Shown: positions 26,619 to 34,356 of the stretch, one piece after another
How the letters are laid out: every line of letters starts with the position of its first letter
Numbering within the stretch: position 1 is the first letter of the stretch
DNA from: Candidatus Zhuqueibacterota bacterium
GTDB lineage: Bacteria > Zhuqueibacterota > Zhuqueibacteria > Residuimicrobiales > Oceaniaggregativiventaceae
NCBI GenBank assembly: GCA_014728085.1
Contig: WJMF01000020.1
Location: 1-64,000, forward strand
Direction: 5' to 3'
DNA: 64,000 bases
The notes under the pieces: generated by a model
The model's input: the letters and a program-made list of their open reading frames with translations, nothing else
The model's database searches: none
What the model was told of the DNA's origin: nothing
Translations under genes and position numbers: made by a program

Positions 26619-27799
26619 GGCTCCTCCCTGTACCAATCTTTTTTGGGTGTATAAGAACTCTGCAGGTTTCGCGTCTGCTCGGCGCGCTGCAGCGCCAATT
26701 GAATCAGTTCATCTAATAAAGCTCCATAGGTCAGGCCCGAGGCCTGCCACAATTTCGAAAACATGCTGATATTGGTAAAACCGGGGATGGTATTGATCTC
26801 ATTGATAAACAATTCTTTTGAGCCGGGATTATATAAAAAATCAACTCTCGCCATCCCCTCCGCACCGACGCAGAGAAAGGTTTGAATAGCGGCCTGTTGT
26901 ATCTTTGCAGTCAGTTCCGGCGATATGTCTGCCGGAATGCACAGTTTGCTGGCATTGTCTATATATTTAGCATCATAATCATAGAATTCATTGCTGGGTA
27001 TGACCTCTCCGACCACGGAAGCGCGGGGATGGGCATTTCCCAAAATACTCACCTCAAATTCCCGCACCGGATGAACCGCTTTTTCGATAATGATTTTATG
27101 ATCAAAGCGAAATGCTGCTTCGATGGCATCTGACAAGGTATGATAATCATAAGCCTTGCTTATTCCAACACTGGATCCCAGATTGGACGGTTTAACGAAA
27201 AAAGGACTTTTCAGCACCTGAAAGATCTTTTCGATCATCTCTTTCCGGCTGGAATTGCCGAGCTGTTTTTCGAGCACCGGCCTGTTGCCCTGCCGGTCTT
27301 CAAGCCAATCCGTATGATACATCCACAAAAAATCCGTGCCCGGCACCGGTAGTGCCGAACATATTTGCTTTTGAAAAACCTTATCCATGGAAAGGGCTGA
27401 TCCCAATACGCCGGCACCGACATAGGGTATGTCTGCATAATCGAGAAGACCCTGCAGCTTTCCATCTTCACCATATGGGCCGTGCATGGCGATGATGATC
27501 ACATCGAGCTCGATTTTGCCCTGCTTGTCGATCTCGCCATTTTTCCATGGAAATATAGATGATAACATCGGCTCAGCCGGCAGAATAACCCGGTGGTTTT
27601 GCGGATAAACGCCTTTTTTAAATTTATTCAACACATCCGTGCCGCTATACCACCTTCCGTCTCTGGAGATCCCAATCGGTATAACCCGGTACGTATCAGG
27701 ATTCAACGCTTTGATGATGGATTGGGCCGATACCAATGACACTTCGTGTTCACCCGACCGACCGCCGAAAATGACCCCTACGCTTAGTTTAGACGGCAA
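26615..27799 (-). CDS. ddl: D-alanine--D-alanine ligase
   Basis: ATP-grasp ligase making the D-Ala-D-Ala end of the peptidoglycan stem. About 394 residues from a TTG at 27799, with GAAGGAGG four bases ahead. Key stretches: VGVIFGGRSGEHEVSLVSAQ at the N terminus, AMHGPYGEDGKLQGLLD near residue 120, KPSNLGSSVGI near 210, DYDAKY near 272, and INEINTIPGFTNISMF near 335. The frame stays open upstream to an ATG at 28072 (91 more codons), but that ATG has no ribosome site and the extra residues are not part of the family. Cytoplasmic; dapF follows with overlapping stop and start. Confidence 0.93.
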   Translation of the reverse strand: MPSKLSVGVIFGGRSGEHEVSLVSAQSIIKALNPDTYRVIPIGISRDGRWYSGTDVLNKFKKGVYPQNHRVILPAEPMLSSIFPWKNGEIDKQGKIELDVIIIAMHGPYGEDGKLQGLLDYADIPYVGAGVLGSALSMDKVFQKQICSALPVPGTDFLWMYHTDWLEDRQGNRPVLEKQLGNSSRKEMIEKIFQVLKSPFFVKPSNLGSSVGISKAYDYHTLSDAIEAAFRFDHKIIIEKAVHPVREFEVSILGNAHPRASVVGEVIPSNEFYDYDAKYIDNASKLCIPADISPELTAKIQQAAIQTFLCVGAEGMARVDFLYNPGSKELFINEINTIPGFTNISMFSKLWQASGLTYGALLDELIQLALQRAEQTRNLQSSYTPKKDWYREEP

Positions 27800-28210
27800 A
27801 AAACCTCCTTCTGATGCTATCGGTAGTATTTCCTCAAAAAAATGAAACTGTATGGAAAAAAATGCGTTATGGTCTATACTCCGCAATATCGGCTTTTCAA
27901 AATATAACCGATACTGTTGATTCAATAGGTATATAAAATAAAAGGTAGAAACTTGAGCGTCAAAATGCAACAGATCATTTTGCAAATATAGTTCAATCCC
28001 GGTGCCAATTGTTAAAATGAAAATTGATTGTACAATTGTGGCACGGGCCAATCGCACTGAATTGTTTTTCATTGCTAATCAGCATAATATTTATTAAATT
28101 AAAAGTTTATTTTTTATAAAGTTTTCATCAAATTTTGCATAACATATCCGCATAAATTTTTTCCTTTTACCTGGAGTAACCTCGTTTATGCGGATCGCTG
28201 GCGAATCATC
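27800..28210. other. Divergent region between ddl and mtaB
   Basis: The ddl-proximal 270 bases are an open frame continuing ddl but probably untranslated. The mtaB-proximal end holds a perfect 11-bp hairpin (28146-28195) and a possible leader peptide (28188-28214). No other gene seen. Confidence 0.5.
28146..28195 (+). promoter_or_regulatory. Leader hairpin immediately before mtaB
   Basis: ATCCGCATAAA (28146-28156) pairs perfectly with TTTATGCGGAT (28185-28195) around a 28-base loop. The loop contains GGAG, and the right arm contains an ATG that opens an 8-codon frame ending across the mtaB start. No T-run follows, so it is not a standard terminator. A translational control element is the best reading; an operator is the alternative. 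Confidence 0.45.
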
Positions 28211-28214
28211 ATGA
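28188..28214 (+). CDS. Possible 8-residue leader peptide of mtaB
   Basis: ATG at 28188 opens MRIAGESS and stops with TGA at 28212-28214, overlapping the mtaB ATG (28211) as ATGA. A GGAG lies 11 bases ahead, whereas mtaB itself has no clear ribosome site, which would fit translation by coupling. It is very short, so this may be chance; no residue bias typical of amino-acid attenuators is visible. Confidence 0.25.
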   Translation: MRIAGESS

Positions 28215-29488
28215 AAGTATCTTTTTTAACATTTGGCTGCAGATTAAATCAGGCCGAGACTGCCATTTTACAAAATAGTTTTGTAAAAGAGGGCTTCCAG
28301 ATCGTCGATTCGGATAAAAATGCCGACCTGGTGGTAATCAACACCTGCACGGTAACCGAAAACGGGGATGCCGATACCCGACGGGCGGTAAACCGTATCT
28401 GCAGAAAACAGCCAACCGCTCAAATCGCCCTGATCGGATGCCAGGCCCAAACCCAAAAGGAAGAGCTGTTATTTAATTCACAGGTACGGTGGATCGTCGG
28501 CAATCATGACAAGTTGAGACTGGCCGCCCTTGTTAAAGAAAATCAGAATCCCCGGCCTTTCGTTCTGGTCTCTTCCGGCGATTCGAAGAGTTTTACCATA
28601 GACGGCGTCGGTATAGACCGGAAACACACACGCGCCAACCTGAAAATACAGGACGGCTGTAATTATTTTTGTGCCTATTGCGAGATCCCCTATGCCCGCG
28701 GCAGAGCCAAAAGTCGCAATTTTAACGATATACGAAGAGAAGCGAATATCCTCGTTGAGGCCGGCCATCAGGAAATCGTGCTTACCGGAATCAATCTGGG
28801 GTGCTACCGGTACCGGGGGAAAACTCTTGTCGATGTCCTTAAAACAATGGAAAAAATAGACGGATTGAAACGTATTCGAATTTCTTCTGTTGAACCGACA
28901 ACCATTACAGACGATTTTATCGAAACGGTATCAGAGTCAGAAAAAATTTGCCGATTTTTCCATATTCCAATGCAATCCGGAGATAATGACATTTTACAGG
29001 CAATGAACCGCAAGCACACCATCGAAACCTTTAGCGATATTATTTATAAAATATATCAGGCCATTGATGATGTCTGTCTGGGCACGGATGTCATGGTTGG
29101 ATTCCCGGGTGAAAGCGAACAACACTTTATAAACTCAAAAACGATTTTGTCGGCGTTGCCTCTTGCTTATCTTCACGTATTCAGCTACTCAGACCGACAA
29201 TATGCCAAAAGCAGAATGATAAACGGCAAAGTGCCTAAAAATGAAATCAACAAACGCAGCAAAATCCTGCGCAAGCTCGGCGCCCGAAAAAGAGAGTCCT
29301 ATTTGCAAAACTTTATGCATAAAAAGGTAACGGTTCTCTTTGAACAAAAGAAAAAGGGATACTGGAGCGGACTAACCGATACCTATATCCGCGTTAAAAC
29401 AGAATCGGATCAAAACCTGAAAAATCAATTCAGACAGGTCAAACTCGTTAAAATCGACAAGCAAATGATGCTCGGTACGCTTTTATGA
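28211..29488 (+). CDS. mtaB: tRNA t6A37 methylthiotransferase MtaB
   Basis: Radical SAM enzyme adding a methylthio group to N6-threonylcarbamoyladenosine at tRNA position 37. 425 residues in three parts: an N-terminal methylthiotransferase domain with cluster cysteines C10 (TFGCRLNQAE), C46 (NTCTVTE) and C77; a radical SAM core with C150-x3-C154-x2-C157 (DGCNYFCAYC); and a C-terminal TRAM-like region. The N-terminal TFGCRLNQAET favours MtaB over MiaB or RimO. It overlaps miaB by four bases (ATGA), so the two thiomethylases are translationally coupled. The start lacks a clear Shine-Dalgarno site and follows a strong hairpin. Confidence 0.92.
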   Translation: MKVSFLTFGCRLNQAETAILQNSFVKEGFQIVDSDKNADLVVINTCTVTENGDADTRRAVNRICRKQPTAQIALIGCQAQTQKEELLFNSQVRWIVGNHDKLRLAALVKENQNPRPFVLVSSGDSKSFTIDGVGIDRKHTRANLKIQDGCNYFCAYCEIPYARGRAKSRNFNDIRREANILVEAGHQEIVLTGINLGCYRYRGKTLVDVLKTMEKIDGLKRIRISSVEPTTITDDFIETVSESEKICRFFHIPMQSGDNDILQAMNRKHTIETFSDIIYKIYQAIDDVCLGTDVMVGFPGESEQHFINSKTILSALPLAYLHVFSYSDRQYAKSRMINGKVPKNEINKRSKILRKLGARKRESYLQNFMHKKVTVLFEQKKKGYWSGLTDTYIRVKTESDQNLKNQFRQVKLVKIDKQMMLGTLL

Positions 29489-30792
29489 AAGTCTACATCG
29501 AAACATATGGCTGTCAAATGAATGAATATGACAGCGAACTGGTAAAAGCTGTTCTGAAAGACCAGAACTTGAGCTTTACCACATCGCTTGCAAAAGCGGA
29601 TATTGTCCTCATCAACACCTGCTCTGTACGTGAAAACGCCAATCGCAAAATTTATGCCCGGGTTCATGAGGTGCGGCATTTGAAAAAGGATCAGAGCTTC
29701 TATATCGGTATTCTTGGATGCATGGTCACCAATCTCGGTAAAGAATTGTTTGATCTGCCGGTGGATTTTTTAGCCGGGCCGGATAGTTACCGCCGTCTGC
29801 CCGCTATGATAAACGAATCGATTGCAATGCAAAGCACTATTCTCGATGACAAACTCTCTAAACAAGAGACCTATCAAAATATATATCCATTGCGCCAAAA
29901 AGGGGTGAATGCATGGATTTCCGTTATGCGCGGCTGCAATAATTTCTGCTCGTTTTGTGTGGTTCCCTATACACGGGGTCGGGAACGAAGTAAAAGTTTA
30001 ATGGATATCTATAACGAATGTCAGCGACTGGCGGATGAAGGATTCAGGCAGGTCACCCTGCTCGGCCAGAATGTCAACTCTTATCATCATGAAGGAAATG
30101 ACTTTGCAGCTTTACTCGATAAAGTAAGTGAGATAGATGGAATTAAACGGATCCGCTTTGTTTCTCCCCATCCAAAAGATTTTCCAGGGTCTCTTATCGA
30201 CATCGTCGCACAGAACGATAAAATATGTAACCACATACACCTTCCCTTACAGGCCGGTAATGACCGTATACTCGGTTTGATGCGACGAACCTATACGCAA
30301 AAACAGTACCTGGAATTGGTGCAAAGAATCAAAGAAGCTATTCCCGATATCACGCTTACAACAGATATTATTGTCGGTTTCCCAACCGAAACCGCAGCCG
30401 AATGTAAAGATACCAAAAATGTGCTGGAAAAAGTGAGATTTGATTCTTCCTTCATTTTTAAATATTCCGAGAGACCCGGGACGCTGGCGGCTAAAAAATA
30501 TCCCGATGATATCGCAGAAGAGGAGAAAACAAGACGCATTGTATCCTTAAATGAACTGCAAAAAGAAATATCACTACAGAAAAACCAATCGCATATCGGC
30601 AAAGTCCATGACGTCCTGCTGGAAAAGAAATCCACAAAAAAATCAACGCAGGATTATCAAGGCAGAAATGATGGAAATAAAGTTGTTATCATATCCAAAG
30701 GTCCCTATCAGATCGGAGATTTTCTTCGGGTGAAAATTGAGGATGCCAGCGCACATACATTAATGGGTACGGTTATCGCACCGCAATCCTAA
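29485..30792 (+). CDS. miaB: tRNA i6A37 methylthiotransferase MiaB
   Basis: Radical SAM methylthiotransferase converting N6-isopentenyladenosine-37 in tRNA to its 2-methylthio form. 435 residues. Cluster cysteines C10 (ETYGCQMNEYDSE, the MiaB hallmark), C46 (NTCSVRENA) and C79; radical SAM triad C151, C155, C158 in RGCNNFCSFC, followed by VVPYTRGRERS; C-terminal TRAM domain ending near VIAPQS. Second gene of the plus-strand cluster, 18 bases before the first MATE gene. Having both t6A- and i6A-specific enzymes in one operon suggests joint control of anticodon-loop thiomethylation. Confidence 0.95.
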   Translation: MKVYIETYGCQMNEYDSELVKAVLKDQNLSFTTSLAKADIVLINTCSVRENANRKIYARVHEVRHLKKDQSFYIGILGCMVTNLGKELFDLPVDFLAGPDSYRRLPAMINESIAMQSTILDDKLSKQETYQNIYPLRQKGVNAWISVMRGCNNFCSFCVVPYTRGRERSKSLMDIYNECQRLADEGFRQVTLLGQNVNSYHHEGNDFAALLDKVSEIDGIKRIRFVSPHPKDFPGSLIDIVAQNDKICNHIHLPLQAGNDRILGLMRRTYTQKQYLELVQRIKEAIPDITLTTDIIVGFPTETAAECKDTKNVLEKVRFDSSFIFKYSERPGTLAAKKYPDDIAEEEKTRRIVSLNELQKEISLQKNQSHIGKVHDVLLEKKSTKKSTQDYQGRNDGNKVVIISKGPYQIGDFLRVKIEDASAHTLMGTVIAPQS

Positions 30793-34085: not shown

Positions 34086-34278
34086 GAATGGGACATGATG
34101 GCATCGCTTTGTCCCCCGGGAGTATCAAAAAAACGCTCTTCCTTCTTTTCTGCTTCTAATGCCCCGCTATTCCATAATATAATGTATTAAATAACAAGTA
34201 ATTATGGCTTGAAATTATATGAGCACTATATCCGGTTTGGCATATCATTTGCTATTCTATTCATAGATGAGATGGAAA

Positions 34279-34356
34279 CCAGGATTCGCCATCGAGCAAC
34301 TCTTTGTTCGGCAGCACAGAGCTTTCATAGTGGCAGCGGCGAATCCTGGCTTTTTT
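34279..34356 (+). terminator. Long-stem terminator ending the mtaB-miaB-MATE operon
   Basis: CCAGGATTCGCC (34279-34290) pairs perfectly with GGCGAATCCTGG (34338-34349), followed by C and TTTTTT. The 47-base loop can form an inner helix (CTCTTTGT with ACAGAG, two bases bulged). It lies about 195 bases after the DUF1893 stop and its T-run abuts the stop codon of the convergent permease. It could also be the 3' end of a small RNA. Confidence 0.7.

Follow-up and report, generated by a model that had tools for sequence, protein, structure and literature searches.

An 11-bp hairpin and an overlapping eight-codon frame upstream of mtaB and miaB in a Candidatus Zhuqueibacterota genome

Results

The mtaB–miaB locus

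Within the window (the whole 64,000-nucleotide stretch of DNA that was analysed), the ORF at 28211-29488 encodes MtaB, scoring 402.7 bits against a cutoff of 357.05 with the NCBIfam equivalog model TIGR01579, and the next ORF encodes MiaB (NCBIfam equivalog model TIGR01574, 464.3 against 355.3) (Table 1). Direct reading shows the mtaB stop and the miaB start (29485) overlapping in an ATGA, like the junction between mtaB and the short frame in front of it. We ruled out a MtaB start further upstream: the mtaB frame contains no ATG, GTG or TTG before a stop, and the alignment begins at residue 1-4 in 15 of 16 family- and order-level MtaB homologues.

Gene calls throughout were ORFs of at least 120 amino acids taken from their first start, with overlaps above 25% removed, and some starts called this way are wrong. 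One belongs to the divergent gene upstream of mtaB, which we take to be D-Ala-D-Ala-ligase-like (ddl). The ORF list puts its start at 28072 on the minus strand; an AGGAGG followed after 4 nt by TTG at 27799 (27797-27809, minus strand, by eye) probably marks the likelier start, which would leave about 410 nt between the ddl-like gene and mtaB. This AGGAGG also indicates that strong Shine-Dalgarno sequences (SDs) occur in this genome.

Table 1. Features of the mtaB–miaB locus (window coordinates)
Feature	Position	Strand	Basis
Predicted sigma-70-like promoter TTGCTA-17-TAAATT, transcription start ~28107	28072..28100	+	Weight matrix
Left arm of stem, ATCCGCATAAA	28146..28156	+	Direct reading
GGAG in loop	28173..28176	+	Predicted paired with UUCC 28161-28164
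Right arm of stem, TTTATGCGGAT, holds leader ATG	28185..28195	+	Reading; pair probabilities 0.89-1.00
Eight-codon mini-ORF MRIAGESS, TGA overlaps mtaB start (ATGA)	28188..28214	+	Direct reading
mtaB, tRNA t6A37 methylthiotransferase	28211..29488	+	TIGR01579 above cutoff
miaB	29485..30792	+	TIGR01574 above cutoff; ATGA overlap with mtaB stop

A hairpin and a mini-ORF abut mtaB

The first-pass annotation had pointed to a perfect 11-bp stem with GGAG in its loop and an ATG in its right arm, and all of these read as claimed: the right arm is the exact reverse complement of the left arm across a 28-nt loop. Folding predicts an energy of -17.9 kcal/mol for the stem (11 pairs plus one G-U) and places GGAG and UUCC in a weak 4-bp helix adjoining the start-codon stem. 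The right-arm ATG at 28188 opens the frame ATG CGG ATC GCT GGC GAA TCA TCA TGA, whose TGA (28212-28214) overlaps the mtaB ATG at 28211 (ATGA, 28211-28214), again as annotated. Eleven nucleotides separate the end of GGAG from this leader ATG. mtaB does lack a ribosome site of its own, with no SD match of at least 4 bases before 28211.

Taken by itself, the stem is unusual: inverted repeats of at least 11 were found in 6 of 1,500 random 120-nt windows (10 of 3,000 in a second sample) and in 2 of 1,000 shuffles of the mtaB upstream region. The mtaB repeat is the longest (rank 1) among the 114 gene starts of its contig; across a broader set of 232 gene starts, 4 had a repeat of at least 11 nearby, and two of the other three resemble short-loop terminators by eye. 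Ranked by best 54-nt fold, mtaB comes 13th of 232 starts. The fold z of the hairpin is -5.5 for 54 nt, a stretch picked after the fact, and shrinks as flanks are added, to -2.9 (101 nt) and -1.9 (161 nt); 7 of 200 shuffles of the 161-nt region fold equally well.

The mini-ORF taken by itself is unremarkable: abutting ATG mini-ORFs of at most 20 codons precede 10 of the 114 genes of the contig, against 131 of 899 internal ATGs; when an SD is also required, the counts become 1 of 114 (mtaB itself) and 34 of 899. The full set of elements occurred together in none of 20,000 shuffles, an SD-bearing mini-ORF with a repeat of at least 9 in 3 of 20,000, and an SD-bearing mini-ORF alone in 259 of 20,000. 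This joint rarity is the strongest point for reading the arrangement as a switch, weakened by the design of the test, which was defined after the feature had been seen.

Across the window (1-64000) there are five perfect inverted repeats of at least 11 (loops of 3-60), compared with 1, 0 and 0 in three shuffles. A second long-loop repeat, at 34276-34352, has 12 perfect pairs around a 47-nt loop and is single copy in the genome; it lies between two convergent ORFs with a T run after it, and is possibly a terminator.

Copies of the repeat and known RNA families

In its entirety the repeat is single copy in the genome, and its exact sequence is absent from the 59 other genomes. Its half-site is found nine times in the genome (two being the arms) against once for a reversed control and, with one mismatch allowed, six times in the window, where 2.45 would be expected; 4 of 100 shuffles reach six. 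Four of the other seven half-sites lie inside listed ORFs of at least 90 amino acids, and a search of 30 bp around each of the seven found no exact partner; the half-site at L117, between genes, has an 8-bp partner by eye. A repeat family or regulon was ruled out on the single-copy whole repeat, its absence from 59 genomes and the lack of exact partners near the other seven half-sites. The lack of an Rfam match likewise ruled out a known RNA family: Rfam 15 gave no gathering match in the window and, for 27700-28400, one chance-level hit only (osmY, E 3.8, other strand).

Predicted transcription start and accessibility of the two starts

We trained a promoter weight matrix on the genome's 114 other upstream regions, excluding that of mtaB, and its best site within 28011-28210 was TTGCTA-17-TAAATT; 26 and 30 of 500 shuffles score equally under two model starts, and a generic promoter scan did not list the site at 28072-28100. 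On this model the transcript would probably include the stem, which would span about +40 to +89. The first-pass annotation had named a transcription start downstream of 28146 as telling against its proposal; the predicted start, near 28107, lies upstream of the stem. The model also shows a weaker promoter-like site, TTGCAT-16-TTTTTT, from which transcripts would begin near 28169; its score of 8.4 in the first model is matched by 226 of 500 shuffles. Upstream of genes, TTG...TA...T pairs number 70 against 34.4 in shuffles (115 regions). In 115 upstream regions of the window's genome, TTG...TATATT pairs occur 8 times against 0.8 in shuffles and TTG...TATAAT pairs are not enriched (1 against 1.4), which suggests that the -10 box of this genome leans towards TATATT.

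Folding agrees with the annotated idea that the stem hides the leader start: positions 28188-28190 have a predicted unpaired probability of 0.00 and cost 19.4 kcal/mol to open, a cost reached by 1 of 232 gene starts. Of the 28 SD-bearing ATGs lying at most 60 nt upstream of gene starts, none of the other 27 is closed as tightly as the leader ATG. Folded in a 100-nt context, the mtaB start is unremarkable, costing 8.3 kcal/mol to open against a median of 7.9. With the whole leader folded it costs 13.3 kcal/mol, equalled by 10.3% of 232 starts, because 28123-28128 are predicted to pair with 28211-28216 and 28134-28138 with 28201-28205. The full leader itself folds with a z of -3.45 (7th of 232), or -2.91 with other shuffles.

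AT content is 40% in the 20 nt that precede mtaB, against a mean of 64% over 232 starts, and 2.6% of starts have less; such an AT-poor stretch does not resemble a typical SD-free start. Together with the fairly closed mtaB start in the full leader, this fits poor direct initiation, as the first-pass annotation supposed, and argues against reading mtaB as an SD-free start.

Comparison with relatives

We compared 110 mtaB loci (L003-L112); once L014, L017 and L103 had been removed, the set comprised 106 relatives and the window's own. The relatives comprise loci from 29 of 59 other genomes and the best 80 of 564 loci, two sets that may share species, and their mtaB starts were picked by rule as the ATG nearest the alignment start. 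Sixteen loci of 21 family- and order-level genomes, minus L014 and L017, supplied 14 usable family/order loci. The comparison reaches three other genomes of the family and the order level, with none from the same genus. MtaB identity is 56% for the nearest relative, 50-54% within the family and about 49-56% over the usable family/order relatives.

Across the 14 usable family/order loci, neither the stem (0 of 14; longest repeat 9) nor the eight-codon frame is kept, and none of the 106 relatives carries an inverted repeat of at least 11 upstream of mtaB (longest 10). As far as the relatives examined show, the arrangement of stem and mini-ORF thus appears private to this lineage. At about 49-56% MtaB identity, these farther relatives offer a weaker test than the close-relative one that the first-pass annotation had proposed, and absence of conservation at family/order distance is weak evidence. 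An abutting ATG mini-ORF is present at 1 of the 14 family/order loci (L009; 3 codons, no SD) and before mtaB in 19 of 106 relatives, 6 of these with an SD. At L031, from another family of the class, an eight-codon SD-bearing mini-ORF is present, but by eye its upstream sequence resembles a terminator and is unlike that of the window's mtaB.

Upstream of mtaB the relatives fold with a mean z of -0.49 (n=105; z of -3 or below in 5 of 105), meaning that a structured mtaB leader is not the norm among them, and 8 of 105 mtaB starts cost at least 13 kcal/mol to open. One of the three same-family relatives, L018, is strongly folded upstream (z -3.84), with a promoter-like TATATT between fold and gene by eye. 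A DNA search with 28080-28214 against the relatives returned short matches only, the best outside the locus (E 1.8e-4) covering about 30 bases of the AT-rich part.

No SD precedes mtaB in 87 of 106 relatives and in 12 of the 14 usable family/order loci, and 56% of the first starts of 114 genes on the contig lack one. The genome does use SDs at some genes: 44% of the first starts of the 114 genes carry one, compared with 15% of 689 internal ATGs. The first-pass annotation had argued from the missing ribosome site that mtaB is translated only by coupling; with SD absence this common among relatives, the argument is not supported.

Discussion

The account we favour, and consider most likely with a fair measure of reserve, is a direct SD-free start of mtaB, with a mini-ORF that is incidental and a hairpin whose effect is small or constant. 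Transcription would begin near the predicted start at 28107, making the hairpin a lineage-private element in a 5' leader of about 100 nt on an mtaB–miaB transcript. Ribosomes would initiate at the mtaB ATG (28211) itself with no SD to guide them, a step suggested by the SD-less mtaB starts of most examined relatives. The mini-ORF would most likely be incidental, because its start is predicted to be shut in the stem and about 1 gene in 11 has an abutting mini-ORF. On balance the hairpin may either reduce mtaB output by a constant amount or have no effect, and no regulation would be needed.

The first-pass annotation had instead suggested a feedback switch: the hairpin closes the leader start, and its opening allows MRIAGESS to be translated and ribosomes to be handed over to mtaB at the ATGA, tying mtaB–miaB output to a signal. 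The absence of the joint arrangement from all 20,000 shuffles argues for such a device, as do a leader start more closed than any other of the 28 SD-bearing upstream ATGs, an mtaB start that is AT-poor and fairly closed in the full leader, a stem downstream of the predicted promoter and the same ATGA overlap at the mtaB–miaB junction. Yet a shut leader start means that obligatory coupling would keep mtaB off unless the stem were opened; we found no candidate opener, and with a start shut this tightly very little mtaB would be made at the basal level. The 11-nt spacing between GGAG and ATG is also long, and stem and eight-codon frame are missing in the 14 usable family/order relatives. Nothing we found bears out the feedback, and we consider the switch rather unlikely. 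A genus-level autoregulatory version, in which ribosome passage over the leader, and with it hand-over to mtaB, would depend on the A37 thiomethylation state, could draw on the leader's last two codons, both UCA (Ser), because in known bacteria the tRNA that reads UCA is a MiaB substrate; we judge it very improbable.

The inverted repeat might also act as DNA, as a regulator's operator, or transcription might start inside it, in which case no RNA stem would form. The excess of half-sites over the reversed control and of one-mismatch half-sites in the window would suit an operator, and the weaker TTGCAT-16-TTTTTT site, with its start at about 28169, would suit an internal start. However, nearly half of the shuffles (226 of 500) match that site's score, the whole exact repeat is single copy, four of the seven other half-sites lie in ORFs with none of the seven having an exact partner within 30 bp, and the arms, 28 bp apart, are spaced widely for binding by a dimer. 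We regard a DNA-level role as improbable. Lower still, at the bottom of our ranking, we place control of the leader start by melting, as in an RNA thermometer or a similar element. GGAG does sit in a weak 4-bp helix with UUCC beside the start-codon stem, but the start codon itself lies in a 12-pair stem that is probably too stable for gradual melting, and the element has no Rfam family match and was not found in relatives.

If the switch were true, it would amount to feedback control of a tRNA thiomethylation operon. As things stand, the locus teaches caution on two points: coupling should not be read from the lack of a ribosome site where mtaB lacks an SD in most relatives, and a single gene's hairpin, however striking, should be compared in close relatives before a regulatory role is assigned to it. 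Among the literature matches listed, titles and the openings of abstracts contained no leader control of mtaB or miaB.

Comparison with known systems

The locus resembles erm translational attenuation (ermC/ermB) in combining a short leader ORF and 5'-leader hairpins with an RNA-modification gene. In erm attenuators the leader is open and the gene's own start is hidden, whereas here it is the leader start itself that is predicted to be hidden (unpaired probability 0.00, 19.4 kcal/mol to open), so that, by prediction, the leader is not open in its ground state as an erm-type attenuator would have it; nor was the arrangement found in relatives. The mini-ORF stop overlapping the mtaB start also recalls stop-start (ATGA) translational coupling, as does the overlap between mtaB and miaB. 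A coupled leader ORF would show this overlap, which is present, and conservation of its frame, which is absent from the 14 family/order relatives; compared with usual ATGA coupling, the upstream frame has only eight codons and its start is predicted to be shut.

The favoured direct start is closest to SD-independent initiation in Bacteroidetes (PMC3155529), in that an SD is absent before mtaB in 87 of the 106 relatives examined. This genome differs in using SDs at some genes and in having 20 nt before mtaB that are not AT-rich. In favour of the direct start, reporter output in Prevotella bryantii, where the SD does not act, was not reduced by a hairpin of -9 kcal/mol placed at -21 (PMC3155529); that hairpin is weaker and further off than the one before mtaB.
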